DNA of 49,016 nucleotides, taken from NCBI GenBank assembly GCA_016871535.1, contig VHCZ01000015.1, forward strand, positions 1 through 49,016. The letters run 5' to 3'. The notes beneath the pieces were generated by a model. The model did no database searches. It worked only from the letters and a program-made list of their open reading frames with translations, and was not told where the DNA came from. This DNA comes from Verrucomicrobiota bacterium (lineage in GTDB: Bacteria > Verrucomicrobiota > Verrucomicrobiia > Limisphaerales > SIBE01). The first letter of the stretch is position 1. Each line of letters opens with the position of its first letter. Positions 18,345 through 45,536 of the stretch are shown here, piece by piece. The position numbers were made by a program, and so were the translations under genes.

Positions 18345-18346
18345 AA

Positions 18347-18619
18347 GAGCGTGTCCGAAAATTGCGCGGGGTCCTGCGGCGAGGGATTTTGGCTGTGGCC
18401 AAGGCGGCGAGGTCCGAGCATCCCCAACGCGGGCTGTAAGGACCGAGCCAACGCAGGCCACGGACAAAAGACCCGCCGCCCGGAGGGTTTTCGCGCCAAA
18501 GGCCGCCTGGCTTCGTTGCTCCTCAGTCGAAGATCCAGGGAGGATATTCTCCTTCGTTGCGCCTCGCCATCCGGCCTTTGGCGCGAAAACAGGACCCCGC
18601 GGAATTTTCGGACACGCTC
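18347..18619. mobile_element. MITE-like element A, copy 2, between sigma and anti-sigma genes
   Basis: A 273-bp element nearly identical to 12516-12788, with the same GAGCGTGTCCGAAAATT-type ends and TAA on both sides (18344-18346 and 18620-18622). It fills essentially the whole gap between the sigma stop codon and the VWA start codon. The target duplication uses the last base of the start codon complement, so the VWA gene has lost its native upstream region. Confidence 0.87.
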
Positions 18620-18626
18620 TAAGACC

Positions 18627-24413: not shown

Positions 24414-24768
24414 AGCATGCCGAACCGCAAGATTCCAGGAGCCGTAGCGCAGGTTTGCAACCTACAGTATCGCCGATCTGCAATCGGCCGGGCCTTTGAA
24501 TGCACGCATGTTCTCGACCGGCGAGGCGCCGGTTATTTGTTCCGTGTGTGGTCAGGATTCCCGCGCGTCAGACCGGACGACGCGTCCTTTCCCCTGGCCC
24601 TCTCCCCCAGGAGAGGGTTCGCCGGTCGCGATCTCAGCTTGATCCGGGAGCGTGGGCCCATTCCAGCGCAGGATAGAATGCTCCCTCTCCCCGGGGGAGA
24701 GGGCCGGGGTGGGCGGAAAGGGGACTCGGAACCACCCAGGAATTCAGAATTGTCGAAGGCGCGAAACT
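24414..24768. repeat. Repeat-filled gspE-gspF spacer
   Basis: The 355-bp gap contains a family-D type palindrome (GTAGCGCAGGTTTGCAACCTAC, then CCGATCTGCAATCGG), a fragment GACCGGCGAGGCGCCGGT shared with the gspJ/gspK repeats, and two copies of the CCCTCTCCC/GGGAGAGGG type (about 24590-24715). No gene is seen. Spacers this long are unexpected inside a secretion operon. Confidence 0.7.
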
Positions 24769-26014: not shown

Positions 26015-26353
26015 ATGAGATTTATGAAACTGAACACGCAGAACAAGGATTTTGAATGGGCTTTCTGCAGGACAGCCCTCTATGCTAAGCCGTATCTATT
26101 CAGTCCGACGGCTCCGTTCCCCTCACCCCGGCCCTCTCCCCAGGGGAGAGGGAGAACATTTCCTGGCCCGTGGTTCAATTCACCATTCGAGGACCATTCC
26201 TGCGTTGGAAAAAATAGCTCCCTCTCCCTTGGGGAAAGGGAGAACACGGCGACATCGGCAGCAGGTCTTGAGGGGATCGAAGTTCCACGGCGTCCCAAGC
26301 GCAGTTCCCTCTCCCTGAGGGAGAGGGCCAGGGTGAGGGGGAACGGGACGTGC
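26015..26353. repeat. CCCTCTCCC-type repeats before gspG
   Basis: At least three copies of a hairpin with arms like CCCTCTCCCCAGGGGAGAGGG lie at about 26112-26341, joined by unrelated spacers. The reading frame of gspG stays open through all of them up to an ATG at 26015, 10 bp after the gspF stop. They may therefore be either untranslated spacer or part of a 135-residue prepilin leader. Confidence 0.65.
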
Positions 26354-26830
26354 ATGAACCCGGCCGCGCTCAATCAAACCCGGAACTCCCGAACTAACCG
26401 TCACTCTGTGCAACAGGGGTTTACTCTGGTGGAACTGCTGCTGGTGCTGGTGATTCTCGGCACGCTGGCGGCCATCGTGGTTCCCAAGTTCGCGGGGCGA
26501 ACCGAACAGGCGCGAATCACAGCCGCGCAAACGCAAATCGCCAACTTCGAAGTGGCCCTTAACGCCTTCGAGGTTGATAACGGCTATTATCCGAAAGGCA
26601 AAGACGGTCTGATGGACCTGGTTCAGGCGCCGAAGGACGCTCAGAATTGGCGCGGACCGTACCTCAAAGATATCCCCGTGGATCCGTGGAGAAATCCTTA
26701 CGTCTATGAGTGTCCGGGCCGGCACAACGAAGACAGCTTCGATATTGCGTCGGGCGGACCGGACGGCCGCACGGGCAACGAGGACGACATCACCAACTGG
26801 GATTCGCAGGGGCAGAATCGGAAACGCTAA
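26354..26830 (+). CDS. gspG: Major pseudopilin GspG
   Basis: The prepilin cleavage site QQG/FTLVELLLVLVILGTLAAIVVP has Glu at +5 and the usual hydrophobic helix. The mature part has the GspG hallmarks: DNGYYP, LKDIPVDPWRNPYVYECPG and a C-terminal GGPDGRTGNEDDITNWD calcium-binding segment. ATG 26354 gives a 22-residue leader. ATG 26015, close behind gspF, would give a 135-residue leader through repeats; both are in frame. It forms the shaft of the type II pseudopilus. Confidence 0.92.
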   Translation: MNPAALNQTRNSRTNRHSVQQGFTLVELLLVLVILGTLAAIVVPKFAGRTEQARITAAQTQIANFEVALNAFEVDNGYYPKGKDGLMDLVQAPKDAQNWRGPYLKDIPVDPWRNPYVYECPGRHNEDSFDIASGGPDGRTGNEDDITNWDSQGQNRKR

Positions 26831-26842
26831 GGCGAACGATCG

Positions 26843-27754
26843 ATGCGAGTGGATCGTACATTGCCGCCGAATGCAGCACGAATTCTGCGGTGTGGGTTGC
26901 ACGACAAGCAGCGACGCCAGACCGTAGCGCAGATTTGCAATCTGCTGTACCGCGGAATTGCATTCCGCAAGCGCCCGGCAAAGTCGGGCGTTCGGCAACT
27001 TGCCGGAGCCGCGCCGATTTCAAATCGGCGATACGGCAGAGTGCAACTCTGCGCTACGGCGCAGCGCGGTGGAGCCGCGCTCCAGCCAAATCGTCGCGGC
27101 TTACAATGTCGGGCGATACCGCAAGCTTGCAGATCGGCACGAGGGGGTGGACGGGGATTTACCCTGATCGAGTTCATTCTGGTCATGGCGTTGCTGGCGG
27201 TCGTGATCGCGATTGCCGCGCCCTCGCTTCCCAACTTCTTTCGCGGGCGCAAGCTGGAATCCGAAGCGCGACGCTTCGTGGCTCTGGCGCGCTACGGCCA
27301 AAGCCAGGCTGTCTCCGAGGGCGTTCCCATGATGTTGTGGATGGATCAGGTGGAGGGAACCTACGGTGTCCGCCAGCCAGACGGATTCAATCTGGACCCG
27401 CTGCAGCCGGATTCCGCGGCGCCGGCCCGGCAAGGCTATGAGAAAGGCGCTGCCACGCAACCGACCTTTCGCCTGGCACAGAATCTTCGCTTCGAACTGG
27501 AAGGCAGCGACAGCCGCACCAACGGGCGCGTGGTGACGATCCGTTTTCTGCCGGACGGTTCGATTGATGAAGCGGCCCTGCGCGTGCTGAAGCTTTTGCA
27601 GGAAGACCCTGAAAAACGGCGCGAACCGCACACGGTCTGGATCGCGCAGTCGTGGGACAACACTCGATATGAAATTGTGGATCAAACCAACGCGTGGCAA
27701 AGGCTCTCCCTGGAGACCAGTCTCGCGGGCCCGGGCCGGCTTTACGCTCGCTGA
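26843..27754 (+). CDS. gspH: GspH-like pseudopilin with a long repeat-bearing leader
   Basis: The prepilin helix GRG/FTLIEFILVMALLAVVIAIAAPSL marks the mature start at residue 106. The mature domain (about 197 residues) has the GspH-like ARRFVALARYGQSQAVSEG block and a beta-rich C-terminus. There is no ATG between 26843 and the cleavage site. ATG 26843 lies 12 bp after gspG, and the 105-residue leader runs in frame across a 138-bp palindrome cluster (26922-27059). GTG 27041 is an alternative with a 39-residue leader. The minor pseudopilin would cap the pseudopilus tip. The 3' end overlaps gspI by 86 bp. Confidence 0.8.
   Translation: MRVDRTLPPNAARILRCGLHDKQRRQTVAQICNLLYRGIAFRKRPAKSGVRQLAGAAPISNRRYGRVQLCATAQRGGAALQPNRRGLQCRAIPQACRSARGGGRGFTLIEFILVMALLAVVIAIAAPSLPNFFRGRKLESEARRFVALARYGQSQAVSEGVPMMLWMDQVEGTYGVRQPDGFNLDPLQPDSAAPARQGYEKGAATQPTFRLAQNLRFELEGSDSRTNGRVVTIRFLPDGSIDEAALRVLKLLQEDPEKRREPHTVWIAQSWDNTRYEIVDQTNAWQRLSLETSLAGPGRLYAR
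26922..27059. repeat. Palindromic repeat family D cluster in the gspH leader
   Basis: Outer arms CCGTAGCGCAGA and TCTGCGCTACGG enclose a chain of small hairpins: GCAGATTTGCAATCTGC, GCGGAATTGCATTCCGC, CGCCCGGCAAAGTCGGGCG, CGGCAACTTGCCG and GCCGATTTCAAATCGGC. The cluster is 138 bp by eye, 46 codons, and leaves the gspH frame open. Confidence 0.8.
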
Positions 27755-28085
27755 AGTCCTGGCGGCGCTGGTGATCATGGCGATTGTCATTCCGGCCGCG
27801 GTCGAGGGTTTGCGCATCGCGAACCGCGCGGGCGTGGTGGCCCAGCGGAAAGGCGTGGCGACGCAGTTGGCCGACAGTTTGCTCAATGAACTGATTGTGA
27901 CGAAAAACTGGTACAATTCTGCGCAAAGCGGAACCTTCAGCCCGGAGTGGCCGGGATACCGCTGGCGCGTGCAAAGCGAGCCTTGGGGCCGCGAAACGAT
28001 GCGGCTGGTTTCGGTCGAGGTCACTTACGAAGTGCAAAACAAAGAATATCGGGTCGTGCTGAGCACCCTGGCGCCGCCGCTGTGA
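27669..28085 (+). CDS. gspI: Minor pseudopilin GspI
   Basis: A 138-residue pseudopilin. A 24-residue leader ends RARAG/FTLAEVLAALVIMAIVIPA, with Glu at +5. The mature part contains NRAGVVAQRKGVATQLADSLLNELI, typical of GspI. ATG 27669 lies inside the 3' end of gspH, so the genes overlap by 86 bp. This is the only pseudopilin in the operon with a normal short leader and no repeat. It begins inside coding sequence, where a repeat would have disturbed gspH. Confidence 0.9.
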   Translation: MKLWIKPTRGKGSPWRPVSRARAGFTLAEVLAALVIMAIVIPAAVEGLRIANRAGVVAQRKGVATQLADSLLNELIVTKNWYNSAQSGTFSPEWPGYRWRVQSEPWGRETMRLVSVEVTYEVQNKEYRVVLSTLAPPL

Positions 28086-29218
28086 ATGTGACACGGGGAA
28101 GTCAACAATGCAGGGGAGCACACGCGCCCTCGCGTGTTCCGACCGGGGCCTCGCCGGTCGGAATGAACGCGTCGATCGATGCCTTGATGATGACCTGTTC
28201 GAGCGAAACACGGTGGTCGGCGAGGGCGCCGACTGCAGCACGCGGGGCGCGTGCGCTCCCCCGAAACGCTTTCACCCTGCTGGAATTGCTCCTGGCTGTC
28301 GCCGTGTTTTCCGTCGTGATCCTGGCGATCAATGTTGTTTTCTTCAGCGGGCTGCGTTTGCGCGCGGCGACTTCGCGGATCGTGGAGGATTCCATTCCAG
28401 TGAACCGCGCCGTTTCTGTGATCAAGAACGACCTGCGCTCGGTGCTTCCGCCGGGAGGGACGCTGGCCAGGACGTTCACCGGCGGCATCCAGAGCAGCAT
28501 GTTCAACAACACGATGCTGAGCCAGGGCGGGGTCGATTCCAGTTCCGGTCTGCAATTCTGCACCACAACCGGTGTCACGGATGACTCGAACTTCGTTCTG
28601 TTCAATCAGACACAAATCGAACCCTGGCCGGAGATCCAGAAGGTGTCGTACTATCTGCGGAACCCTCTTTACTCGACCAACCAATGGGGCAAGGAACTCG
28701 TGCGCGCGGTCACGCGCAATCTTTTGCCCGTGATGGAAGATATGCCGGTCGAACAGCCGCTGCTCGACGGCGTGGAGCGGATCGAATTCCTGTTCTACGA
28801 CGGTCTGTCGTGGTTGTACACGTGGGACCTTGCCACAATGCAGACGTCCTTCCAAACGACCGAGGGCCAGAGTCAAACCAACGCATTGCCGCAAGCGGTC
28901 AAAATCCTGATCGAATTCGCCGCCGTGGGCCGCGATGAGCGTCTGCGCAAACCGCCGATTCAATTGGTCGTGCCCATCGTGGCGGAAGCGCGAACCAACC
29001 AACTCGCGTCCGCCAGCACGAACAGTTCGGCGCAAGTTACAAGCCGCGGGAATACAACGCCGGGCGGCAATCAGAACACGAGCGGCGGCAATCAGAACAC
29101 GAGCGGCGGCAATCAGAACACCGGGCGCGGCGGTGCAACCACGCCCCCGGCTTCCAACCCTTCTTCCGGCGGTCAGCGCGGAGGAAGCGGCGGCGGCGGA
29201 CGAGGAGGTGGGCGGTGA
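28082..29218 (+). CDS. gspJ: Minor pseudopilin GspJ with repeat-bearing leader and Asn/Gly-rich tail
   Basis: GTG 28082 overlaps the gspI stop (GTGA), a typical coupled start. The leader of about 63 residues crosses a 149-bp palindromic element (28113-28261) and ends RNA/FTLLELLLAVAVFSVVILAI, with Ala rather than Gly at -1. ATG 28163 or 28190 within the leader are alternatives. The mature domain matches GspJ (NRAVSVIKNDLRSVL, VERIEFLFYDG, LPQAVKILIEF). The C-terminus is a low-complexity tail with GGNQNTS repeats and a Gly-rich end, which is not usual for GspJ. It is part of the pseudopilus tip complex. Confidence 0.85.
   Translation: MNVTRGSQQCRGAHAPSRVPTGASPVGMNASIDALMMTCSSETRWSARAPTAARGARALPRNAFTLLELLLAVAVFSVVILAINVVFFSGLRLRAATSRIVEDSIPVNRAVSVIKNDLRSVLPPGGTLARTFTGGIQSSMFNNTMLSQGGVDSSSGLQFCTTTGVTDDSNFVLFNQTQIEPWPEIQKVSYYLRNPLYSTNQWGKELVRAVTRNLLPVMEDMPVEQPLLDGVERIEFLFYDGLSWLYTWDLATMQTSFQTTEGQSQTNALPQAVKILIEFAAVGRDERLRKPPIQLVVPIVAEARTNQLASASTNSSAQVTSRGNTTPGGNQNTSGGNQNTSGGNQNTGRGGATTPPASNPSSGGQRGGSGGGGRGGGR
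28113..28261 (+). repeat. Palindromic repeat family G, copy in gspJ leader
   Basis: Arms GGGGAGCACACGCGCCCTCG and GCGGGGCGCGTGCGCTCCCC enclose a second pair around CCGACCGGGGCCTCGCCGG and GGTCGGCGAGGGCGCCGAC and a centre of about 50 bp. It aligns along its whole length with the reverse complement of 29250-29399. Confidence 0.82.
29063..29122 (+). repeat. 21-bp tandem repeat in gspJ
   Basis: Three copies of GGCGGCAATCAGAACACGAG plus C, the last one diverging at its end, encode GGNQNTS repeats in the GspJ tail. Being a multiple of three, copy-number change keeps the frame. Confidence 0.85.
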
Positions 29219-30741
29219 AAACCGTTCGTTGTTTCCGTCCGCTTCAATTGGGGAGCGCACGCGCCCTCGCGTGCAGTGGTCGGCGCCCTCGCCGGCCTCT
29301 GAGTTTCCTCCGAAGAAGCCATCGCTACGAGACCGCCCGACGTGTGGGTTTCGACCGGCGAGGCGCCGGTCGGGACACGCGAGGGCGCGTGTGCTCCCCA
29401 ATGTCGCCCGAACACGCCTCAGTTCTCATCATCGTGCTCTGGATCACGTTCGGGTTGGTGAGCACGGCGCTCTACTTCGGCCATTCCATGCTGTTTGAAT
29501 TCCGCGCGTCGGACAATCACACCGCGGGCGTCGAAGCTGAGCAAGCGATCGAAGGCGCGGCCCGGTATGTGGCCTACGCTCTGACTAACCTCACCCAGCC
29601 GGGCCAGTTCCCGGAACTCCAATGGTACGACGTCGAGAACGTGCCCGTAGGCGAATCCCTTTACTGGCTGATCGGGCGCACCAACGTGTCCATGCAACTA
29701 GACCGGAACGAAACCCCGCGCTTCGGATTGATCGATGAAGCCTCCAAGTTGAACCTCAACACGGCGACGCTGGAGATGCTTCAGAACCTCCCGCGCATGA
29801 CACCGCAACTGGCGGCCGCGATCATCGATTGGCGCGACGAAGACACCAACCCTTCGCAGGACGGCGCGGAGACGGAAACTTACTCGCGCCTCAATCCGCC
29901 TTACCAGAGCAAGAACGCGCGATTCGAATCGATCGAGGAACTGCGGCTCCTGTTCGGCGCGGACCCGGAAATTCTTTACGGCGAGGACTACAACCGGAAC
30001 GGGATTCTCGACCCGAACGAGAACGACGGCGACTTGTCGTGGCCCGTGGATAACCGCGACGGCAAGCTGGATCCGGGAATTCTGGAATTTGTCACGATCT
30101 TCAGCCTGGAAGCAAACACGCGCACCAACGGCTCGCCGCGCGTGAATGTCAGCGGCGGCGGGACGAACCTCGCCGAATTGCTCCAGGAAAAGTTCGACCA
30201 GGCCCGCGTGAATGCAATTCAGCAGCGCGTCGCGAGCGCGACCAATCGGAGCGTGCTCGAATTTTTCCTGCGCAGCGGGATGACGGCAGAGGAGTTTGCC
30301 GAGATCGAAGGCGACCTGACCACGACCAACGCCGCGGTGATCGAAGGACTGATCAACGTGAACACAGCGCCCGTCGAGGTGCTGGCTTGTGTCCCGGGCA
30401 TCGGCTGGGATAAGGCGCAACAAGTCGTGGACTACCGGCAATCTCAGAGCGCCGTTTTGACCAGCCTGGCGTGGGTCGCCGAGATCCTGGACCAGGCGAG
30501 CGCAATTCAGGCCGGGCCTTACCTGACGTCCCGGAGCTACCAGTTCACCGCCGACATCGCGGCGGTGGGCCACCACGGACGCGGCTATCGGCGGACGGCG
30601 TTTGTGTTCGATACCAGCGAAGGCGCTCCGAAAATCATCTACCGCCGCGATCTGGGCCGGCTGGGTTGGGCGCTCGGCCCGCTCGTGCGGCAGGAACTGG
30701 CGCAAGCGAAAGAGACCGGAATTACCACGAGAATGCGATGA
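29215..30741 (+). CDS. gspK: GspK-like minor pseudopilin with repeat-bearing leader
   Basis: GTG 29215 overlaps the gspJ stop (GTGA). The frame then crosses a 150-bp palindromic element (29250-29399) before the helix HASVLIIVLWITFGLVSTALYF; ATG 29401 directly after the element is an alternative. The mature protein is GspK-like: LNLNTATLEMLQNLP and LINVNTAPVEVLACVPGI are the helix-hairpin-helix segments of the SAM-like domain. DYNRNGILDPNEND and DNRDGKLDPG look like EF-hand-type calcium loops. GspK caps the pseudopilus tip with I and J and limits its length. Confidence 0.87.
   Translation: MKTVRCFRPLQLGSARALACSGRRPRRPLSFLRRSHRYETARRVGFDRRGAGRDTRGRVCSPMSPEHASVLIIVLWITFGLVSTALYFGHSMLFEFRASDNHTAGVEAEQAIEGAARYVAYALTNLTQPGQFPELQWYDVENVPVGESLYWLIGRTNVSMQLDRNETPRFGLIDEASKLNLNTATLEMLQNLPRMTPQLAAAIIDWRDEDTNPSQDGAETETYSRLNPPYQSKNARFESIEELRLLFGADPEILYGEDYNRNGILDPNENDGDLSWPVDNRDGKLDPGILEFVTIFSLEANTRTNGSPRVNVSGGGTNLAELLQEKFDQARVNAIQQRVASATNRSVLEFFLRSGMTAEEFAEIEGDLTTTNAAVIEGLINVNTAPVEVLACVPGIGWDKAQQVVDYRQSQSAVLTSLAWVAEILDQASAIQAGPYLTSRSYQFTADIAAVGHHGRGYRRTAFVFDTSEGAPKIIYRRDLGRLGWALGPLVRQELAQAKETGITTRMR
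29250..29399 (-). repeat. Palindromic repeat family G, copy in gspK leader
   Basis: A 150-bp copy of the element at 28113-28261 in the opposite orientation, with arms GGGGAGCGCACGCGCCCTCG and CGAGGGCGCGTGTGCTCCCC. It occupies exactly 50 codons between the coupled GTG start and an ATG. Confidence 0.82.
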
Positions 30742-30751
30742 AACGAATCCG

Positions 30752-32191
30752 ATGATTTCCCTCACTAAAAACAAACCGCCCTCTGCGTTGATGGGGTTGA
30801 CGCTCGACAAGAGCCGGATCGAGGGCGTGGTGCTGCGCCGGCTCAATGGAGCCGTTCAAGTGCACCGATCCTTTCAAACTTCGCTTTCGCTGGACCCGCT
30901 GACGAACGATCCCGAATTGGTCGGGCGCGAAATCCGCAATCATTTGAATGAGGCCGGCGTGCGCGTGAAGCCGTGCGCGGTCTCCGTGCCGTTGAACTGG
31001 GCGCTGACTTTGCAGACCAAGATCCCGGCCATTCCCGAAGCGGACGTCGCGGACTTTCTCACCATCGAAGCGGAAAAGGGATTTCCGTACGCGCCCGAAG
31101 ATTTGTTCATCTCGATTTCACGATTTCGCGCTCCGAACGGGGATCAATACGCGACGATCGTGGCCATACCGCGGAATCACCTGACGCTTCTGGAGCGGGC
31201 GCTGCGGGCCGCGCAACTCAAGCCGCTGAGTTTTTCTTTGGGCATCTCCGCATTGCAGGACCTCGGCAAAGATCCCGCCTTCGGCTTGCTCGCGCTCGTG
31301 GTGGGCGAAAGTAGCGTTGAACTCCAGGTGTCCTCCGGTGGCGGCGTCGCGGCACTGCGCTCGCTGGAAGGCGCCATTGAAGCCAACGGTTTCGAACGCG
31401 ACATCGACGCCGACCTCATCGCGCGGGAAATCAAGATCACCCTGGGGCAATTGCCCAGGGAACTGCGCGAGACCGTGCGCAAAATCAAGGTGTTCGGCCG
31501 CCCCGAACTGGCGCAGCGCCTGGTGAAGGAACTTCAGGAGCGTCTGGACACCATGGGCCTGGAGATTGGCCTGGGCACCGCCCAGCCCGTGAATGGATTT
31601 CCGGTGCCGGTCACTTCTGACAAGGGTCTCTCCCCCGCGCTCGGCATGGCGGCCCGATACATCGTGGGCAAGCCGGGCGGATTCGAATTTCTGCCGCCCC
31701 GGGTGAGTCCGTGGACGCAGTTCACCGCGCGTTTTGCCTCGCGGAAGATGGTGTCGTGGGGCGCGCTGGCGGGCGCGACCGTGGTTTTGATCGCCGGAAC
31801 CTTCCTGTGGCAGCAGGTCCGGTTGTCCGGCCTGGAGTCGCGCTGGAAAGCGATTCAACCTCAAGTGACGGAGCTCGAAGATTTGCAGCAACGCATCCGA
31901 AAGTTCCGCCCGTGGTTCGACAACACCGCGCGCACGCTCGTCATCGTGCGCAAGCTGACGGAAGCGTTTCCGCTCGACGGCGCGGTTACCGCGAAAACGG
32001 TGGAGATCAAAGACCTTTCCACAGTCTCCTGTTCCGGCCAGGCCAAGGACCGCGAATCGTTGTTGAAAGTGCTCGAACGGTTGCGCGGCGCCAAAGAAGT
32101 GGCAGACCTGAAGCTGGGCCAGATCCGCGGGAATTCGCCGTTGCAGTTTTCCTTCGACTTGCGCTGGCGGGAAGGATCTCATGAAAATTAG
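30752..32191 (+). CDS. gspL: GspL-like (PilM/PilN-type) assembly protein
   Basis: A 479-residue protein starting MISLTKNKPPSALMGLTLDK. The N-terminal 330 residues have the actin-like PilM/GspL pattern (GLTLDKSRIEGVVL, AVSVPLNWALT, EAEKGFPYAPED, LLALVVGESSVELQV). A single membrane helix (MVSWGALAGATVVLIAGTFLWQQ) follows near 375-400. After it come a coiled-coil segment and a ferredoxin-like periplasmic domain, as in GspL/PilN. It should link the GspE ATPase to GspM and the outer complex. It begins 10 bp after gspK and overlaps gspM by 11 bp. Confidence 0.85.
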   Translation: MISLTKNKPPSALMGLTLDKSRIEGVVLRRLNGAVQVHRSFQTSLSLDPLTNDPELVGREIRNHLNEAGVRVKPCAVSVPLNWALTLQTKIPAIPEADVADFLTIEAEKGFPYAPEDLFISISRFRAPNGDQYATIVAIPRNHLTLLERALRAAQLKPLSFSLGISALQDLGKDPAFGLLALVVGESSVELQVSSGGGVAALRSLEGAIEANGFERDIDADLIAREIKITLGQLPRELRETVRKIKVFGRPELAQRLVKELQERLDTMGLEIGLGTAQPVNGFPVPVTSDKGLSPALGMAARYIVGKPGGFEFLPPRVSPWTQFTARFASRKMVSWGALAGATVVLIAGTFLWQQVRLSGLESRWKAIQPQVTELEDLQQRIRKFRPWFDNTARTLVIVRKLTEAFPLDGAVTAKTVEIKDLSTVSCSGQAKDRESLLKVLERLRGAKEVADLKLGQIRGNSPLQFSFDLRWREGSHEN

Positions 32192-32726
32192 GAACCGCGA
32201 AAAACTTCTGACGATCGGCGCCATTGCCGCCGTGGCCATTCTGGCCGGGGACCGGCTCGTTTACCCCCCGCTGGTGCGGACCTGGAATGACAAGAACACT
32301 CGGATCACGGAGTTGAATCGCTCCATCAACAAAGGCGAAGGTTTGCTCCGAAGCGAACGCTCCATCCGCGAGCGCTGGGACGATATGAAGAAACGCTCGC
32401 TGCCGGCCGATGTATCCAAAGCGGAAAACGACGTGCTTCAGGCGGTCGTCCGCTGGCAGCAGGAAAGCCAGATCGGGTTGACCTCCATCAAGCCGCAGTG
32501 GAAACGGACCGACGAAGATTTTGCGACGCTGGAATGCCGGGCCGATGCGGGCGGCGCCGCCGGCGGCAGCATCGAAGCAGTGTCGCGTTTTCTTTACGAA
32601 CTCGAAAAAGATCCCCTGGCGCTGAAGATCGAGGGCGTGGAAATCACGTCGCGCGATACCGCCGGCCAGCAAATCTCCGTCGCGGTCCGGTTCAGCGGAT
32701 TGCAGCTTGCCCGGGAGGAACGATGA
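32181..32726 (+). CDS. GspM/PilO-like protein
   Basis: A 181-residue bitopic protein: short cytoplasmic start MKIRNREKL, membrane helix LLTIGAIAAVAILAGDRLVY, coiled coil (NKNTRITELNRSINKGEGLL in outline) and a C-terminal ferredoxin-like domain. This is the layout of GspM and PilO. It overlaps the L gene by 11 bp and the next gene by ATGA. It is expected to pair with GspL in the inner-membrane platform. Confidence 0.78.
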   Translation: MKIRNREKLLTIGAIAAVAILAGDRLVYPPLVRTWNDKNTRITELNRSINKGEGLLRSERSIRERWDDMKKRSLPADVSKAENDVLQAVVRWQQESQIGLTSIKPQWKRTDEDFATLECRADAGGAAGGSIEAVSRFLYELEKDPLALKIEGVEITSRDTAGQQISVAVRFSGLQLAREER

Positions 32727-33838
32727 AAGCGGCGCTTTTCAAAATGAACCTGGCAGAGATCGCAACCCGAGTGGCGTGTTCTCTCACGCGCGGACCGCAG
32801 CCTTTAGGCTGCTTCCGCGCGCTCTCCGCAGTCGAGCGTCGAAGCGGCCTAAAGGCCGCGGTCCGGAAGAATGGTTCATGCGAAGCTTCCTGTTCCTTAC
32901 GAACCTGCCCAAGGCCCACGAACCGAAAACCGCGCGGACCTCAACCTTTAGGCTGCTTCCGCGCGCAATTTGGAGTTCGGCGTGGAAGCGGCCTGAAGGC
33001 CGCGGCCCGAGGAGTTGGTTCATGGGAAGACACCCGCGCGGCCATTCTGTGCGCTCTCTTGTGCGTGCTGCTTTCTTGCATGATCCCCACGGCGTTCGGC
33101 GCCAATGAATCCACGAATGCGCCTGCGAGCACGGACGCGCCACGCTCCGAACCCGCATTGGTGGCGGGCGAATCCACCAACGCGCCTTCACTTCAGGGCT
33201 TCGCGGAATTCAAGATCGTTGCGGAGCGGAATATCTTCAACGCCAACCGGCGTCCGGGCACAGCCAATCGGCCACCTAGAACCGAACGCCCGCCCAGAAC
33301 CGAAGCGTTCTCTCTGGTCGGCACCTTCCTCTACGAAGACGGCAACTTTGCCTTTTTCGCCGGGACGGAATCGGGCTACAATAAAGTGTTGAAAGAAGGC
33401 GAGACGATTGGCGACTGCGAGATCACGAGCATCACGCAAGATTCGGTCAAACTGCTGAGCGGCGAGATGGAGATTGATCTGCCGCTGGGGCTTCAGATGA
33501 AGCGGCCAGAAGGAGGCAGATGGGAACTGGTTGTTGGCGCGGTCGCCTCGACCTCAGCAGCTCCTTCAACTTCGACATCGGCATCGGGAGGACGCGATCG
33601 GGGCTTCGGTTCCGATAACCGGCGGGATCGTGGTGGGTTCGGCTCGGACCTGCGGCGTCCGGGTGGAGACACTCGACGGGATCGCAGTTTCTGGGGGCGC
33701 GAACGCAGCGCGCCTTCCGCACCAGTCACGGAGGCGGCGCCGGAATCGAAACCGGCCGAGGCACCAGGCAATCCAGGTCCTGCGGACGACATTCTACAAA
33801 AACTGATGCAAAAACGGGAACAGGAGTTAAACAAATGA
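32723..33838 (+). CDS. GspC/PilP-like protein with in-frame palindromic repeats before its signal peptide
   Basis: ATG 32723 overlaps the M stop (ATGA). After MKAALFKMNLAEIATR the frame crosses two 75-bp palindromic modules and a linker (32791-33009). It then reaches the hydrophobic export segment AAILCALLCVLLSCMIPTAF, which has no suitable start codon of its own. The mature part contains FKIVAERNIFNANRRP and a small beta domain (FSLVGTFLYEDGNFAFFAGT), matching the HR domain of GspC or PilP. It ends in a Gly/Arg/Pro-rich tail. It should contact the secretin, encoded immediately downstream with another ATGA overlap. The in-frame repeats are best supported here. Confidence 0.75.
   Translation: MKAALFKMNLAEIATRVACSLTRGPQPLGCFRALSAVERRSGLKAAVRKNGSCEASCSLRTCPRPTNRKPRGPQPLGCFRAQFGVRRGSGLKAAARGVGSWEDTRAAILCALLCVLLSCMIPTAFGANESTNAPASTDAPRSEPALVAGESTNAPSLQGFAEFKIVAERNIFNANRRPGTANRPPRTERPPRTEAFSLVGTFLYEDGNFAFFAGTESGYNKVLKEGETIGDCEITSITQDSVKLLSGEMEIDLPLGLQMKRPEGGRWELVVGAVASTSAAPSTSTSASGGRDRGFGSDNRRDRGGFGSDLRRPGGDTRRDRSFWGRERSAPSAPVTEAAPESKPAEAPGNPGPADDILQKLMQKREQELNK
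32791..33009. repeat. Cassette-like palindromic array 2 inside a coding leader
   Basis: Two module-i copies (32791-32865 and 32935-33009, 75 bp each) with arms CAGCCTTTAGGCTGCTTCC and GAAGCGGCCTAAAGGCCGCG are joined by a linker starting GGTTCATGCGAAGCTTCC and ending CACGAACC. GGTTCATGGGAAG follows at 33017. The same module is at 12074-12148 and 45557-45629. Confidence 0.8.
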
Positions 33839-35547: not shown

Positions 35548-35614
35548 TCCGTCGATATCGTCCGGTGGCTCTGAGTTTGAAATCTGAAATCCGAAATCTG
35601 AAGTGGATCAGCCT

Positions 35615-36841: not shown

Positions 36842-36861
36842 GCCTTCACAGGGTTTAGCGT

Positions 36862-37024
36862 GGGTGGGGATGCGTTCCACCGCGTCCCAAACTGAACCTT
36901 GAAGCAGACGGCTACCGGAAGGTGACGATGGGACGTCTGAGGTCTCGGGTATTCCCGTCCTCCGCTTTCGATTGGCCGAACGTCTTCCGGGTGAGATCAG
37001 GGACGCGGTGGAACGCGTCCGCGC
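36862..37024. repeat. Palindromic repeat family E after the secretin gene
   Basis: GATGCGTTCCACCGCGTCCC at the left and GGGACGCGGTGGAACGCGTC at the right form widely spaced inverted arms around about 110 bp, each arm itself a hairpin. Same family as 7652-7738. Confidence 0.7.
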
Positions 37025-37071
37025 CGAACGCAAAGCTTCCTTTGCCTGAAAAGATCAGTTAAACTCAAGTT

Positions 37072-38655: not shown

Positions 38656-38785
38656 ATCCCCCTCGTGCGCAAGAGCCGCATTACCTGCGTTGCCTGGTTA
38701 ACTCATGTAATGCCCTGACGACTTTCATTGCGGCTTTTGGACGCACGGGTAAATTCTCCAGCAAAACGCGAAGCCGCTGCGCCCC

Positions 38786-40159
38786 ATGCCGACGAAAGCT
38801 CACTCGCCTTCCCCGAAACCGCCGAAGATTCTGATCGTCGATGACGACGCGGGCCAGCGGAGCTTGTTGGACTCGTTCCTGAGGCGCCAGGGCTTTGAAA
38901 CGGTCATCGCCTCTTCCGGAGAACAAGCGCTGGAAATTCTGAAGGGCGAAGGCATTCAAATGATGATCTCCGACGTGCGGATGCCCGGAATGACCGGCCT
39001 GGCAACATTGCGGGAGGCGCGGCGCCAGCACTCCGTGCTCCCGGTCTTGCTCATCACGGCGTTTCCCGACATTCGCGACGCGGTGGGTGCAATGCGCGAC
39101 GGCGCGGTGAATTATCTGGAAAAACCGATTGACCTGGATGAATTGCTGTCCGCCGTGCGCAAGGCCATCGGAATCCAGGAGCAAACAGCACCCGCGTACG
39201 GGCAAGACAAGCCGCTCCCGCCTTATGTCGTGGCCAAGAGCCCGCTCATGGAAAACGTCTTTCGGGACGTCTCGCTGGTCGCGCCCTCGGACAGCCGGAT
39301 CCTGATCACCGGCGAGAGCGGCGTGGGCAAGGAGATCGTGGCCGGCGTGATCCACCAGTGGAGCGGCCGCGCGGCCGGACCGCTGGTCATCGTGAATTGC
39401 GCCGCCATTCCCGAGACGCTGTTGGAAAGCGAGTTGTTCGGCCACGAGAAAGGCGCGTTCACAGGCGCCACCAATCCGAGAGTGGGCCGTTTCGAGGAGG
39501 CCAACGGCGGCACCATTTTTCTGGATGAAATCACCGAGATGTCGCCGCCGCTTCAGGCCAAACTCTTGCGCGTGACGCAGGATGGCAGCTTCCAGCGCCT
39601 CGGCTCGAACAAGGAACGGCAAACCAACGCGCGACTCCTCGCCGCGACCAATCGCAATCTCGAAGAGGTCGTGAAGAAGGGAAGTTTCCGGGAGGATTTG
39701 TACTATCGGCTGAACGTCATGGAGATTTCCGTTCCACCGCTGCGGGAACGGACCGAAGACATCGTGCCTCTGGCCGGATTTTTCGTCGAACAATTCTCCA
39801 AACGCAAAGCGCGCTTCTCGGCCGCAGTGATCGCCATCCTGGAAAGCTATCAATGGCCGGGCAACGTGCGCGAGCTCCGCAACGCGATGGAACGCGCCAC
39901 GCTTCTCTCGCACGGGGAATTGATCCTGCCCGAACATTTGCCCGGCCGCATTCGCCAGGCCACCCAGAGCGAAAAGCCCCCTGAAACGACGCCGGCCAGC
40001 CGGCTGGAAGACATCGAACGCCAGGCCATTTTGCAGGTCTTGCGGGAAACCCACTTCAACCGCACGGAGGCCGCCAAGGTCCTCGGCATCAGCCGCCGCG
40101 CGCTGACCTACAAACTCCAGCACATGCGCGAGCAAGGCTACGCAGTGGATGCGCGCTAG
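38786..40159 (+). CDS. Sigma-54-dependent response regulator (NtrC family)
   Basis: A 457-residue regulator. The receiver domain has acidic pocket VDDD near 18-21, phospho-acceptor Asp63 (ISDVRMPG) and K113 (EKP). The AAA+ domain has Walker A GESGVGKE at 176-183 and the sigma-54-contacting loop GAFTGA at 223-228, with Walker B IFLDEI. The Fis-type helix-turn-helix near 415-450 reads FNRTEAAKVLGISRRALTYK. It activates sigma-54 promoters when phosphorylated by the neighbouring kinase. No -24/-12 promoter could be assigned confidently in this window. Confidence 0.95.
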   Translation: MPTKAHSPSPKPPKILIVDDDAGQRSLLDSFLRRQGFETVIASSGEQALEILKGEGIQMMISDVRMPGMTGLATLREARRQHSVLPVLLITAFPDIRDAVGAMRDGAVNYLEKPIDLDELLSAVRKAIGIQEQTAPAYGQDKPLPPYVVAKSPLMENVFRDVSLVAPSDSRILITGESGVGKEIVAGVIHQWSGRAAGPLVIVNCAAIPETLLESELFGHEKGAFTGATNPRVGRFEEANGGTIFLDEITEMSPPLQAKLLRVTQDGSFQRLGSNKERQTNARLLAATNRNLEEVVKKGSFREDLYYRLNVMEISVPPLRERTEDIVPLAGFFVEQFSKRKARFSAAVIAILESYQWPGNVRELRNAMERATLLSHGELILPEHLPGRIRQATQSEKPPETTPASRLEDIERQAILQVLRETHFNRTEAAKVLGISRRALTYKLQHMREQGYAVDAR

Positions 40160-40210
40160 GTATTCTATTGGAAAGCCAGCAACGAATGGTGTCGTGAAAA
40201 ACTGGATAGA

Positions 40211-40534
40211 CGAACAGGAAGGCACGAGAACATGAAAACAGTGTCTGTGACGGAGCTGACGATCCGTTCGCCGCCGCGGCTAAGCGTCTCGCCAAGCCTC
40301 GCTCGCATCTGCCGAACGATTATGCACTCAACCACGGTCACTACGTTCGCGGCGCCCTTGATCAGATCAAGAACCAACCGCGCGCTATCTGCCCGTCGCC
40401 GTTGTTCGTGGATAGCAAGCTGACGAGCATGATTCAATGCGCGGACTTGTGTGCGTTTGCCGTCCGTTCATGCTTGACCAGGAAGGAGGCGCACCGCTTT
40501 GATCGCATTGGCCAGATTCAAAAAAGTCCAGGGC
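40211..40534 (+). pseudogene. DUF3800-like C-terminal remnant
   Basis: One frame is open from a stop near 40205 and reads LPNDYALNHGHYVRGALDQI, then PLFVDSKLTSMIQCADLCAF and AVRS. The FVDS-hydrophobic-Q-ADL-A pattern resembles the C-terminus of DUF3800 proteins, RNase H-like proteins common in mobile and defence regions. The first ATG in this frame is only at 40402, after most of the conserved part, so the gene has lost its 5' end. A second frame from ATG 40232 begins MKTVSVTEL, like a Phd/YefM antitoxin start, then degenerates. Identified by eye only. Confidence 0.45.
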
Positions 40535-40717
40535 TTAAGCCTTGTCACGCGGAGGCAGAATATGAAGTTCCCGGCAAATCGTTTCCACCGAAGCCCTCAA
40601 ATCCTCCAAGCATTCCTTTCGCGTCTTGCCCTGGCCATTGGCTCCCTTAATTTCTGGACACCAGCCGACATACCAGCCGCCATCCTTGAAAATCACGGCT
40701 GTGTACTCCGGTTTCAT
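40535..40717 (-). CDS. HicB-like antitoxin, orphan
   Basis: A 60-residue protein: MKPEYTAVIFKDGGWYVGWC, then PEIKGANGQGKTRKECLEDL. This is the short HicB domain, a partly RNase H-like fold, without the C-terminal DNA-binding segment of longer HicB proteins. It would neutralise a HicA mRNA interferase, but no HicA gene is visible on either side. It lies tail to tail with the DUF3800-like remnant, in a small decayed region between the regulator and the dehydrogenase genes. It may act with a HicA elsewhere or be a leftover. Confidence 0.65.
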   Translation of the reverse strand: MKPEYTAVIFKDGGWYVGWCPEIKGANGQGKTRKECLEDLRASVETICRELHILPPRDKA

Positions 40718-41007
40718 CGCGACAATTTAGGCGGCGGACGAGATGACTTCAACCGGCAAAATGGCTCCAGGAGAAAATTCGGCTGGAAAATCGACAGCGT
40801 TCCATCGAAAAACTGTTTTGGCCCAGCCAATGGCTCAGTATGATGCCGCCATGAATACGCGTCGCGGGTACCGACCACGGATTTCGCGGAGGACACGGAT
40901 CAGAAATGGTTTTTCTGGAATGGTATCCGTGTTTATCCGAGGGATCCGTGGTTAGGAATCGGGATGACGGTCTTAAGAACAACATCTTGAAGCATCGAAC
41001 CAAGCGT
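40718..41007. other. Intergenic region upstream of the PVC dehydrogenase gene
   Basis: No gene is seen. The sequence ACGGATTTCGCGGAGGACACGGATCAG and nearby CACGGAT/ATCCGTG pairs (about 40876-40955) form a common bacterial-type imperfect palindrome. The remainder should hold the promoter of the downstream gene. Confidence 0.5.
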
Positions 41008-43497
41008 ATGAGCGAAACAACTTTTCCCCCATCCACCTTTCTCTCTCTTGCCCTGTCTTTGACGCTGTGCACCCAAGCGTTCGCGGCCCCTGCTCCCGCT
41101 GGAATCAAACCGACCGGCGCCGACGACCGTCCGCTCAATCTCGACCTTGAGGACGGCACGCTCAAGGACTGGAAGGTTGAGGGCAGCGCGTTTGGCAGGC
41201 AGCCAATTAAGGGCGACACCGTGGCCAGGCGGCGCGATGACATGAAGAGCAATCACGCGGGCGAATACTGGATCGGCACGTACGAAATCGCCGGTGACGA
41301 TCCGACCGGGACGCTCACCTCCGTGCCGTTCAAGGTCACGCATCCGTTCGCCAGTTTCTTGATCGGCGGCGGCTCAACGGAGTTGAATCGGGTCGAATTG
41401 GTCCGCGCGGATACGAAGCAAGCGTTCTTCAAAGTATCCGGCTTCGACGCGGAGAACATGCGGCCCGCGGTCGTGGATTTGCAGCCGCACCTGGGGAAAG
41501 AAATCTTCGTTCGGGTAATCGATCACCAGATTGGCGCGTGGGGCCACATTAACTTTGACGACTTCAAATTCTTCGCCGCCAGGCCGGCCTTGCCGAATGA
41601 GATCACCGCCGCCGAACTGGCCAGACAAGCGGAAGTTCCTCCGGCCGACGTCGTCAAATATGCCGGGCTTTCGCCGGAAGAAGCCGCCAAAGCCATCACG
41701 CTGCCGCCCGGGTTTTCCGCCAGACTTTTCGCGGGCGAACCGGACGTGAAGCAGCCCATCGCTTTTGCCATCGACGACCGCGCGCGGCTCTGGGTCGCGG
41801 AAGCTTACACGTATCCGCGCCGCGCGCCGGAGGGCCAGGGCAAGGATCGCATTCTGATTTTCGAGGACACGGACGGCGACGGCCGATTCAACAAACGCAC
41901 CGTCTTCATGGAAGGGCTAAACTTGGTGAGCGGATTGGAAGTCGGCTTTGGCGGCGTCTGGGTGGGCGCCGCGCCGTACTTGATGTTTATCCCGGACAAA
42001 GACGGCGACGACAAACCCGACGGCCCGCCGGAGATTCTGCTCGACGGCTGGGATTTCCGGGCGGACACGCACGAGACGCTGAACACGTTCACCTGGGGGC
42101 CGGATGGCTGGCTGTACGGGTGCCACGGCGTTTTCTGCCCGTCGAACGTCGGCAAACCCGGCGCGCCGGCGAGCGAGCGGCAATGGGTCGATGCCGCAGT
42201 GTGGCGGTATCATCCAACCAAGCATCGGTTCGAGGTCTTTGCCGAAGGGGCGAGCAATCAATGGGGCGTGGATTTCGACGACTACGGCCAGTGTTTCATC
42301 GAAGCCTGCGTGATCCCGCACCTCTGGCACATGATCCAGGGCGGACGCTATCAGCGCCAGGGGGGCGAACACTACGCGATCAGCCTGGAGGAGATTCGCC
42401 GCAATGAACGCGCGCGAAATCCCAATTCACGGAAGCCGACCTATCCCTTTTTCTACGACGACATCAAAACCATCGGCGATCACGTTCACTGGGCCGGCAG
42501 CAAAGGTCCGCACGCGGCCAATGCGCGCTCCGATTCGGCGGGCGGCGGCCACGCGCACGCCGGATTGATGGTTTATCTGGGGGACAGTTTCCCGGCGGAT
42601 TACCGGGGAAAACTTTTCATGAACAACATCCACGGCCAGCGGATTAACATGGACATTCCCGAACGCCGCGGTTCGGGCTTCGTGGGCAAACACGGCGCGG
42701 ATTTTGCCAACTTCAACGACACCTGGTCGCAGACGATGAATCTACTCTACGATCAGAACGGCTCAGTTTATGTCATCGATTGGTACGACAAGAACCAGTG
42801 CCACCACAACAACGTCGAGGGCCACGACCGCTCGAATGGCCGCATTTTCAAGATCGTTTATGGGGACACCAAATGGACGCCGGTGGATTTGCAGAAGAAG
42901 AGCGACGACGAACTGGTCCAGCTTCAATTGCACCCGAATGATTGGTACGTCCGGCATGCGCGCCGCCTCTTGCAGGAGCGTGGCCCGAATCCAAAAGTTC
43001 ACGAGGCGCTACTCATGATTCTCAGCGAGAACCCGGATGTGACGCGCAGGCTTCGGGCGCTTTGGGCGCTGCACGTCACGGGGGGATTGACCGAGAAAAT
43101 CGCACTGGCCCAACTCGATCACGCGAACGAATACATCCGGGCCTGGGCGATTCAACTTATGATGGAGGACAGGAATCCTTCCGCGGCACTCCTCAAGGAA
43201 CTGGCTCGTTTGGCGAAAAGCGATCCTTCACCGTTCGTCCGGCTCTACGTCGCCGCCGCGCTGCAGCGGACGCCGGTGAACCAGCGCCTGGAAGTGCTGG
43301 AAGGGCTGCTCGCTCACGCCGAGGACTCGCAGGATCATAACTTGCCGCTGATGTATTGGTACGCCACGGAGCCGGTCGTCGCCCAGGACATGAAGCTCGC
43401 CGTGGCGCTGATGACAAAGACGAAGATTCCACTCGTGCGCCAGTTCATCACGCGAAGGATGGCATCTTCCGATAAGGTGGCTTCGGCGGGGCGATGA
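41008..43497 (+). CDS. PVC-type membrane-bound dehydrogenase-domain protein
   Basis: An 829-residue exported protein (signal peptide to about AFAAPAPA). An N-terminal jelly-roll-like segment (LNLDLEDGTLKDWKVEG) precedes the PVC dehydrogenase domain (TIGR02604-like), which starts at LPPGFSARLFAGEPDVKQPI. That domain is a beta-propeller with WVAEAYTYP, ILIFEDTDGDGRF, WGPDGWLYGCHGVF and HAHAGLMVYLGD. HEAT-like repeats follow from about residue 640. Many homologues end with a c-type cytochrome CxxCH domain; none is present here. Start ATG 41008 is chosen because it opens the signal peptide. The ATGA overlap couples it to the next gene. A sugar-dehydrogenase role is suggested by the propeller; electron transfer would need a partner. 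Confidence 0.87.
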   Translation: MSETTFPPSTFLSLALSLTLCTQAFAAPAPAGIKPTGADDRPLNLDLEDGTLKDWKVEGSAFGRQPIKGDTVARRRDDMKSNHAGEYWIGTYEIAGDDPTGTLTSVPFKVTHPFASFLIGGGSTELNRVELVRADTKQAFFKVSGFDAENMRPAVVDLQPHLGKEIFVRVIDHQIGAWGHINFDDFKFFAARPALPNEITAAELARQAEVPPADVVKYAGLSPEEAAKAITLPPGFSARLFAGEPDVKQPIAFAIDDRARLWVAEAYTYPRRAPEGQGKDRILIFEDTDGDGRFNKRTVFMEGLNLVSGLEVGFGGVWVGAAPYLMFIPDKDGDDKPDGPPEILLDGWDFRADTHETLNTFTWGPDGWLYGCHGVFCPSNVGKPGAPASERQWVDAAVWRYHPTKHRFEVFAEGASNQWGVDFDDYGQCFIEACVIPHLWHMIQGGRYQRQGGEHYAISLEEIRRNERARNPNSRKPTYPFFYDDIKTIGDHVHWAGSKGPHAANARSDSAGGGHAHAGLMVYLGDSFPADYRGKLFMNNIHGQRINMDIPERRGSGFVGKHGADFANFNDTWSQTMNLLYDQNGSVYVIDWYDKNQCHHNNVEGHDRSNGRIFKIVYGDTKWTPVDLQKKSDDELVQLQLHPNDWYVRHARRLLQERGPNPKVHEALLMILSENPDVTRRLRALWALHVTGGLTEKIALAQLDHANEYIRAWAIQLMMEDRNPSAALLKELARLAKSDPSPFVRLYVAAALQRTPVNQRLEVLEGLLAHAEDSQDHNLPLMYWYATEPVVAQDMKLAVALMTKTKIPLVRQFITRRMASSDKVASAGR

Positions 43498-45536
43498 AAT
43501 GCAGAAGGGACAGAGACCGGCCCGCGCCCCATGATCCCGTTGGGATTCTAAACGGAAGAATTGCGTGTAAGGAGCAGAGGGGACTGGCGCACTCCAAAAC
43601 CTCGCGGTGGAGTGTCGGTTCCTGGGAAGTCTCCACGGCTTCAGAACCAGGCAGTCGGCCCATGAACCCGGTAGGGCGAGTCCGTCCCAGCGAGCCGCTC
43701 GACGTGCGTGGAATACATCCGACTCGGCTCGCTGGGGACAGGCTCGCCCAACCGTCTGGTTCATGGGAAGCTTCCTTGGCCACGGCGCCATGCACATGGA
43801 CCATGAACCCACCCCCAGCCCCTCCCGAGAGGGGAGCCCCGTTTGTCGCGTCAAAATCAAGTTCCCCTCCTGGGAGGGGTAAGGGGTGGGTTGGTTCATG
43901 GGAAGGACTGAGGAGAGAGGCAACCAATAAAGACGGCCCTCCTCTCCCTGGGCAGGGAAGAGAGGGAGTAATCCGAACCCAATCTTCAGTCTCGATCCTG
44001 TCCCCAGCGAGCCGAGCTGGACGTGCTCCAAGCCTGTCGAACGGCTCGCCGGGACGGACTCGCCCTACCTTCTTGATCCTCCTTCTGATTGGCGCAACTG
44101 CCGGTCTCTCCGTGGAGATGTCCGGGGCTGGACCCGAATCCTCAGTGCCAGCCCCGCTGCGAGCCGTTCTGGAGAACACCCGTCCTTTGGAACTCCCGCG
44201 CGGCACCCGGCTTCCCTTATTTGTTCTGCCGATCTCCAATGCGCTGCGTGGTTCAAGCGACGAGTTGGCCGAAAAGGCGCTCTCCGAATTGGCCGTGCGC
44301 GGCATCGGCTATACCGTGGCGTGGAATCCGAACGACCGGGCCCAAACACTGGCCGAGGGATTGCGCAGCGCGAAGTTTGCCCGGCGCGTCGGGCTGCCCG
44401 TGGCCGTGGACGCGACGGCGTGTCTGGACGGATTCTTCAATGGCGATCCTGCTACCCTGCACATCGACGGCGAAGGCCAGCCCTTCGCGGATCTCTCATT
44501 CGATCCAGGGCGGAGGATGGGATGCCCATTCGCCCTGGTCGGACGCGTGCCGGTGATTCGCGAGCGCGTCGAATTTTTCCTGAAGGCTTACGCGAAAGCC
44601 AGGGCCCGAATCGATTTTGTCTTTGCCGACTGGGAAATTGACGGGCCGATTGAATGGAACGACGCCTGGGCGAATTCGCGGAAATGCCAGAGGTGCCGCG
44701 CACGAATCAAAGACCTCGACGACTTTCGCGCGTTTCAACGCCAGTTGCGGGAAGTCCGCAGCGATTTGCAGCGCCGGGTTTTTGCCCAGCCGGTCCGGTC
44801 CCGTTTTCCGAAAGCTCTGGTCGGAAACTACGGCGTCTATCCGCACAACGGACGCCGGCACTGGTACGATTATTACGAACGTCTGCCGGAGGGGGCGCCA
44901 TTCGTGGAGGATCAGCGGGCGCGCTATCGCGAGTGGGCGCATGAATTCGGTCCGTGTCGCTACTCTCTGGCGATGCCGGTTGTGTACACGTGGTATCCGA
45001 TCTATCACTGGTACGACTTTGCGAACTCGGATTACCGCTGGTTCTACAACCTCCTCCTGGTCGGCTCGAACGCCGGCCAGTCCACGCCGCGCTCCACCCC
45101 CATCGTGACCTTCGTGCACCGCAACACCACGGCGCCGCCTCCGAATGCGGATCCCGGCGTGAGGCCCTTCAGTCCGGAGCAATACCAGGAGTTGCTCTGG
45201 CACCTGCTTTTGCGCGGCCACGACGGGTTCTTCGTCTGGTGCCTGCAGGAGGAGTTGGCCGAAGAGACGCGGCTCGTTCATGAAGTGTATGCCGCCTCGC
45301 TGGCCTATCGGGAATTCCTGGATCGCGGGCAACCCGTGACTTTTGAAGTGCCGAAACAGCCGGCCCCAATTGTCTCCGGCTTGCGCCTGGGAAGCCGAGT
45401 CCTCGTTCGCCGCACCGATTTCGAACCGAATTCAGGCGCAGTGCGATTGAAAGTCGGCAAACAAGAATTGAAAATCCCGCGTTCGGAACAGAGCCAAGTC
45501 ATACCGATTCAACTTCGCAGGGCGGCGAAGCCGTAA
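43494..45536 (+). CDS. Exported TIM-barrel-like protein with a repeat-filled leader
   Basis: ATG 43494 overlaps the previous stop (ATGA). About 190 codons then run through cassette-type repeats (43607-44069) with no stop, until a hydrophobic segment FLILLLIGATAGLS near 44073. The mature part (about 480 residues) contains SELAVRGIGYTVAWNPND, RIDFVFADWEIDGPIEW, FPKALVGNYGVYPHNG and LLLRGHDGFFVWCLQE. This is the rhythm of a glycosidase-like TIM barrel, with a possible acidic D-W-E pair, and a short beta C-terminus. The family was not recognised. Translation could instead begin at TTG 44072, but coupling favours the upstream start. Confidence 0.6.
   Translation: MKCRRDRDRPAPHDPVGILNGRIACKEQRGLAHSKTSRWSVGSWEVSTASEPGSRPMNPVGRVRPSEPLDVRGIHPTRLAGDRLAQPSGSWEASLATAPCTWTMNPPPAPPERGAPFVASKSSSPPGRGKGWVGSWEGLRREATNKDGPPLPGQGREGVIRTQSSVSILSPASRAGRAPSLSNGSPGRTRPTFLILLLIGATAGLSVEMSGAGPESSVPAPLRAVLENTRPLELPRGTRLPLFVLPISNALRGSSDELAEKALSELAVRGIGYTVAWNPNDRAQTLAEGLRSAKFARRVGLPVAVDATACLDGFFNGDPATLHIDGEGQPFADLSFDPGRRMGCPFALVGRVPVIRERVEFFLKAYAKARARIDFVFADWEIDGPIEWNDAWANSRKCQRCRARIKDLDDFRAFQRQLREVRSDLQRRVFAQPVRSRFPKALVGNYGVYPHNGRRHWYDYYERLPEGAPFVEDQRARYREWAHEFGPCRYSLAMPVVYTWYPIYHWYDFANSDYRWFYNLLLVGSNAGQSTPRSTPIVTFVHRNTTAPPPNADPGVRPFSPEQYQELLWHLLLRGHDGFFVWCLQEELAEETRLVHEVYAASLAYREFLDRGQPVTFEVPKQPAPIVSGLRLGSRVLVRRTDFEPNSGAVRLKVGKQELKIPRSEQSQVIPIQLRRAAKP
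43607..44069. repeat. Cassette-like palindromic array 3 inside a coding leader
   Basis: In order: a linker ending CCCATGAACC; module ii (43670-43753, 84 bp, reversed relative to 12215-12298); the linker GGTTCATGGGAAGCTTCC...CCATGAACC (about 43758-43808); module iii (CCCCTCCCGAGAGGGG / CCCCTCCTGGGAGGGG, about 43809-43890); GGTTCATGGGAAGG; a CTCTCCCTGGGCAGGGAAG hairpin; and a 5'-truncated module ii (about 43997-44069). Confidence 0.78.

Follow-up and report, generated by a model that had tools for sequence, protein, structure and literature searches.

Palindromic repeats in open frames between coupled start codons and export signals in a gsp operon of a Verrucomicrobiota bacterium and its relatives

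In the DNA of a Verrucomicrobiota bacterium, several genes of a gsp operon carry palindromic repeats between a start codon placed at the preceding stop and the prepilin or signal helix, with the frame running through the repeats. This raises the question of whether the ribosome reads through the repeats from the coupled start or whether the genes start past them, and, if the former is true, why the repeats are found there. The window, by which we mean the whole stretch of 49,016 nucleotides analysed here, corresponds to contig C15 of a draft assembly of 6.67 Mb, which consists of 460 contigs and is 96.8% complete. The gene order gspF-G-H-I-J-K-L-M-C-like-D is kept in relatives, and for GspK the best relatives are mostly deposited as Verrucomicrobia, Pedosphaera or Limisphaerales. 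The matches of GspG, GspJ and GspK to PF08334, PF11612, PF03934 and PF21687 exceed the curated cut-off, while those of GspH and GspI to PF12019, PF02501 and PF07963 (the N-methylation motif) are weak, with E about 0.001-0.002, and fall below it. The genome also has a prepilin peptidase gene (PF01478, contig C54), where a single 391-aa open frame has two segments above the cut-off. The leaders in the window are as follows.

10191-10550, + strand: sulfatase 2 leader (Sulfatase domain), 120 aa; repeat 10380-10525 ahead of the signal helix; SD match 4
26015-26416, + strand: gspG leader, 134 aa before GFTLVELLL; ATG 10 nt past the gspF stop
26096-26157 and 26304-26346, + strand: repeats of the gspG leader, with a further copy near 26218-26246
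26843-27154, + strand: gspH leader, 104 aa before GFTLIEFIL; repeat 26921-27061; SD match 5 at 26843
28082-28267, + strand: gspJ leader, 62 aa before AFTLLELLL; repeat 28113-28266; GTG overlapping the gspI stop
29215-29412, + strand: gspK leader, 66 aa; repeat 29246-29406; GTG overlapping the gspJ stop; SD match 8
32723-33031, + strand: leader of the C-like gene; two repeat copies at 32787-33030, then the helix TRAAILCALLCVLL; ATG overlapping the gspM stop; SD match 5
43494-44069, + strand: leader of the 43.5-kb gene, 192 aa; repeats 43616-43905 and 43993-44072, then the helix FLILLLIGATAGLSV; ATG overlapping the preceding stop

A sequence-only reading of this DNA had described in-frame repeats between a coupled start and the export helix in gspJ, gspK, the C-like gene and the 43.5-kb gene, and this description is borne out, with the start codons at 28082, 29215, 32723 and 43494 overlapping the preceding stop. 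The same plan had been extended to gspH and, as a possibility, to gspG and sulfatase 2, and there too it holds, with the starts lying 12, 10 and 17 nt, respectively, past the preceding stop. In all seven genes the frame stays open across the repeats as far as the prepilin or signal helix. It is noted that at the coupled starts of gspJ (28082) and the 43.5-kb gene (43494) an SD sequence is absent.

That at least four unrelated families of palindromic elements are involved, as had also been proposed, is confirmed. The repeats are multicopy, and in self-matches over 1.25 Mb of the genome the depth per base peaks at 29 and 32 in the gspG leader, 65 in gspH, 29 in gspJ, 36 in gspK, 33 in the C-like gene and 79 and 62 in the 43.5-kb gene. 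The elements of several families are about 150 bp in size, those in gspG being smaller at 43-62 bp. One common family is present in gspJ and gspK, in opposite orientations, and this element has at least 96 matched pieces with 40 of the 196 candidate places scored. When leaders of relatives were searched in their own genomes, all four of the four tried had numerous matches (71, 26, 53 and 45 pieces), and by eye one motif recurs in several leaders of one genome (H, J and C-like of L053; I/J and K/C-like of L068). A fold z below −2, relative to shuffled DNA, is reached by 43 of 79 long junctions versus 3 of 80 in-gene control stretches; some long leaders are without a palindrome. In these counts, as in the charge and pN/pS analyses below, the preceding stop was located from where the alignment of the neighbouring gene begins, a delimitation that misplaces the gspG stops of three loci (L061, L062 and L069), where the real gaps are 62-75 nt. 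The Rfam search of the window gave zero families at the gathering score. It is also observed that both ends of the contig (window 1-216 and 48760-49016) fall in repeats, the draft assembly probably breaking at them, and that the genome contains 13 matches to PF01797 (Y1/RAYT-type transposase), which are candidate movers of repeats.

Across the gsp operons compared, gaps of at least 90 nt are found ahead of GspH in 22 of 79 cases, GspJ in 27 of 83 and GspK in 21 of 91, and are rare elsewhere, being present in 1 of 85 for GspM, 2 of 49 for GspF (where the window's own gspF gap is not among the long ones, a spurious ORF having been taken as the neighbour) and 0 of 12 for GspD; the three M and F cases have no coupled open frame. 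The gene gspI serves as a natural control, its leader being coded mostly inside the 3' end of gspH in the window (27669-27754) and in relatives, and a long gap is present in only 2 of 81 cases. Most of the gsp operons that were examined have short leaders.

These observations bear on the proposal, made as one of two possibilities in the sequence-only reading, that the repeats have been recruited to tune expression. In such a role, leader hairpins would slow or protect the message or time the membrane targeting and in this way set the dose of the minor pseudopilins. That the leaders fold better than shuffled DNA, that H, J and K are the most affected genes and that some leaders are kept between related genomes speaks for this role, but strong folding is inherent to the repeats anyway, the families are unrelated and occur in either orientation (gspJ and gspK), and the leaders of most operons are short. 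Moreover, at the C-like leader two congeners, the window and L070, carry different peptide motifs and apparently different families, as judged by eye. The tuning part of the earlier proposal is unsupported by the measurements, and we regard recruitment as unlikely. The other part, that the leader tolerates insertions, is supported, as the following comparisons indicate.

At every junction, the two shifted frames were scored alongside the mature frame on the same DNA. Junctions of at least 90 nt count as long, and a start counts as coupled if it is an ATG or GTG that lies between −6 and +25 relative to the preceding stop. The first set comprises 20 operons, namely the window and 19 relatives (L051-L069; L070, which covers only the K tail to D, was left out), and the second comprises the 71 additional loci that were left of 80 once 9 duplicates had been taken out; four rows of this set that lack a clear motif are not counted. 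In this way 90 other genomes (19 and 71) are available for replication. Here the preceding stop was set from the end of the neighbour's alignment, where overshoot (negative gaps, mostly of gspI) removes some rows from the long class, and the counts omit the C-like gene, the mature start of which is undefined, and H/I junctions shorter than 20 nt. For G, H, I, J and K of the 20 operons, 29 of 31 long junctions are open and 25 of 31 are open with a coupled start, versus 26 and 6 of 62 shifted frames; with the window removed, 21 of 27 are open and coupled, versus 5 of 54. The six failing junctions consist of four that are open but without an ATG or GTG in −6 to +25, one with an NN gap and one with a second GspG-like copy, the last two being the closed ones (gspJ of L064, open up to the assembly gap, and gspH of L062, with the copy in between). 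In the 71 loci, the long junctions of gspJ and gspK are open in 29 of 30 cases and coupled in 25 of 30 (shifted frames 27/60 and 4/60), and those of gspH and gspI in 12 and 9 of 14 (10/28 and 2/28). The closed junctions of this set are gspJ of L175 (95 nt) and gspH of L221 (274 nt, folding strongly) and L243; that of L243 seems by eye to span a GspG-like stretch, and L175 and L221 remain counter-examples. The open frame and the coupled start are thus conserved features of the long junctions, and this multi-genome comparison of sequences suggests that ribosomes really read through the leader repeats.

The tie to export can be seen within the genome itself. A sample of 1.25 Mb, which is 19% of the genome, was scanned, with genes called by codon usage, repeats by self-comparison and export by a hydrophobic N-terminal stretch. 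Once the window is excluded, 1.2 Mb of this sample remain, and of the exported tandem genes there that have a repeat upstream, 11 of 41 have an open frame with a coupled start, versus 0 of 82 shifted frames, while the other repeat-bearing genes of the same sample are at chance level, with 5 of 83 versus 11 of 166. The exported and the other genes differ with p = 0.003, and the export excess is stable at hydropathy cut-offs of 1.7, 1.9 and 2.2. A lack of genome-wide enrichment in leaders, which the sequence-only reading had named as an outcome against it, is contradicted in the sampled part of this genome. The plan is absent from 30 of the 41 repeat-bearing exported genes. In the gap-length count, three of the five leader-type genes classed as other look exported by eye (C8 35474, C11 7835 and C10 28968), and the counts were left unadjusted. 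A second pilin-type operon (G000 C25:9686-17039, L118) has repeat-bearing leaders of 80-155 residues in three of four successive genes. In three relatives, samples of 400 kb (G005), 266 kb (G032) and 150 kb (G006) yielded 1, 2 and 0 repeat-bearing genes for exported proteins, without any of the leader type, which is too few for power. Judged by gap length alone, the three together give 4 of 38 exported genes versus 2 of 76 shifted frames, while for the other genes the figures are 7 of 91 and 11 of 182. In the lipoprotein-like gene G000 C8:35474-36727, an in-frame repeat lies behind the signal peptide, maybe in a linker, and not ahead of it.

Where translation starts can be examined from the initiation signals. 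At coupled starts the mean SD match is 3.88 for long leaders (n = 59) and 3.78 for short leaders (n = 125), while at downstream in-frame ATG or GTG codons it is 2.13 (n = 84), like the 2.17 of out-of-frame codons (n = 132). Such a downstream ATG or GTG in frame is missing altogether from 27 of 70 long leaders. The initiation signal therefore lies upstream. For 19 leaders of this genome taken by themselves, the advantage is only mild, an SD match of at least 4 being present at 6 of 19 coupled starts, 7 of 48 in-frame codons and 15 of 81 out-of-frame codons; in 11 of these 19 leaders an in-frame ATG or GTG occurs past the last repeat, so that single genes may start there.

These data allow another explanation to be weighed, namely that the repeats are ordinary intergenic ones, that the genes start past or inside them and that the upstream open frame reflects chance in GC-rich DNA and misannotation of the start. 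Two places in the window form a contrast to the leaders.

24439-24493 and 24673-24722, + strand: repeats ahead of gspF, which is without a cleaved leader; its MPLFQYRA start lies past them at 24769
18344-18623, − strand: repeat in an open frame ahead of the VWA/YfbK gene (15729-18344, − strand)

For the VWA/YfbK gene the real start is likely the ATG immediately past the repeat, and together with gspF and the 30 exported genes that lack the plan it speaks for this explanation. In the leaders themselves, gspG has an alternative start at ATG 26354, 3' of its repeats, that would give a normal leader of 21 residues, and gspK has ATG 29401 available five residues ahead of its helix. On the other hand, the shifted frames are seldom open with a start (6/62, 4/60 and 0/82), the SD scores of downstream in-frame starts are those of out-of-frame codons, and neither the C-like gene nor gspH has an ATG, GTG or TTG between its last repeat and the helix, the possible starts of the C-like gene being 32723, 32744 and 32771 only, all upstream of the repeats, and the last one of gspH, 27041, being within the repeat. 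In gspJ, the starts other than 28082 and GTG 28088, including 28190, all lie within the element, and in the 43.5-kb gene no in-frame start lies between 43803 and the helix. The intergenic explanation is thus quite improbable as a general account, and the SD and frame data contradict the rule that starts lie only past the repeats, which had been named as the outcome that would speak against the leaders; for single genes, gspG above all, a start downstream of the repeats is possible.

The sequence constraint on the leaders was analysed in six homologous pairs, where pN is 0.159 and pS 0.165 (pN/pS 0.96) for the leaders, versus 0.054 and 0.343 (0.16) for the first 80 mature codons of the same pairs. 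The amino-acid sequence of the leader thus looks free to evolve, and it is to be noted that a pN/pS near 1 is equally expected of untranslated DNA. Of the indels in the six leader pairs, four of six are multiples of 3, the other two being a pair of 10 and 10. The frame is kept, and the leader peptide looks free to change. An all-versus-all pairwise alignment of long leaders gave mostly spurious pairs, and the stricter set of six was used instead. In the gspH leaders of L203 and L206, the leader pS of 0.07 is lower than the mature synonymous value of 0.45, hinting at conversion between repeat copies or a constraint on the DNA.

That the repeats are kept for positively charged, non-hydrophobic peptides suiting an N-in leader is very improbable, since the net positive charge of the leaders (9.5 per 100 residues in the 62 gsp leaders) does not exceed that of the unused frames (11.4 forward, 10.5 reverse) and the used frame is not less hydrophobic. 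Selection of the used frame for charge or hydropathy is unsupported by this comparison, which covered 62 gsp leaders plus 13 from this genome and in which used and unused frames differ mainly in stop codons.

The explanation that we consider probable is that the leaders are translated from the coupled start through the repeat and are then cut off, the leader being a tolerated harbour for repeats. Initiation would take place at the codon overlapping or closely past the preceding stop, the palindromic repeat would be translated into a peptide of arbitrary sequence, in the window 60-190 residues long, followed by the prepilin or signal helix, and the leader would stay cytoplasmic and be removed by prepilin peptidase or signal peptidase. 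Because the leader is removed, its sequence would be irrelevant provided that the frame is open. In operons with stop-start coupling, an insert between the stop and the start would break the coupling, while one within the mature region would ruin the protein itself; since neither would be tolerated, the leader would be the sole remaining place where repeats can persist. In other organisms, a spacing of about 20 nt between stop and start is reported almost to abolish coupling (PMC10666635). Translation itself, the cleavage and the filtering by selection are steps that we infer; what the sequences show directly is the open frame with its conserved coupled start, the upstream initiation signals, the free change of the amino acids and the excess in exported genes of this genome. 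A wider version, in which an order- or phylum-wide safe harbour lets mobile palindromes be translated as throw-away peptides of up to about 200 residues, some of them co-opted for pacing the translation or targeting of minor pseudopilins, seems doubtful.

The nearest known case is that of the Rickettsia RPE, which form several families of palindromic elements some 150 bp long, nearly half of them in frame inside genes (PMC10969869). The elements considered here are alike in size, in the number of families and in lying in frame in protein-coding genes, where their translation would be the counterpart. Unlike the RPE, which are described in unrelated metabolic genes, they are in excess ahead of export signals; and unlike the RPE, each of which has a conserved peptide, the gspJ/gspK family is read in both orientations and so gives different peptides, with leader pN/pS near unity in relatives. 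The REPs (GTAG/CGTC) are likewise palindromic, of high copy and present in Verrucomicrobia, some lying at the N-termini of ORFs and some within genes in Opitutus terrae, but are 20-40 bp in size, most elements here being longer; the same source judges many N-terminal REPs to be extragenic through wrong starts and states that Rickettsia conorii proteins with an N-terminal RPE-1 are expressed (PMC3733652). Enterobacterial RU-1 to RU-3 are also MITE-like repeats fused to ORFs, but there the repeat forms part of the signal, whereas here the gene apparently has a signal of its own, with the repeat upstream of it. The long signal sequences of autotransporters belong to one protein class, whereas the leaders here consist of unrelated repeats in various proteins. 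No report of an enrichment of translated repeats in cleaved leaders was found in titles and abstracts among the matches listed, subscription journals lying largely outside the scope of that search. In-frame palindromes in Rickettsia and N-terminal REPs are thus known, and the enrichment in cleaved export leaders is apparently new.

While N-terminal repeats are often blamed on wrong starts, several independent lines indicate that many of those ahead of export signals would be real translated leaders. This would explain in simple terms which sites in packed operons let mobile palindromes survive, would change the start-site annotation of exported Verrucomicrobiota proteins and raises the question of how leaders of 60-190 residues are handled by the targeting machinery and by the prepilin and signal peptidases.

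Finally, we note that among the loci collected here, two records titled Akkermansia muciniphila and Klebsiella pneumoniae (L168 and L222) hold a gsp operon of the Verrucomicrobiota type, and these MAG names look wrong.
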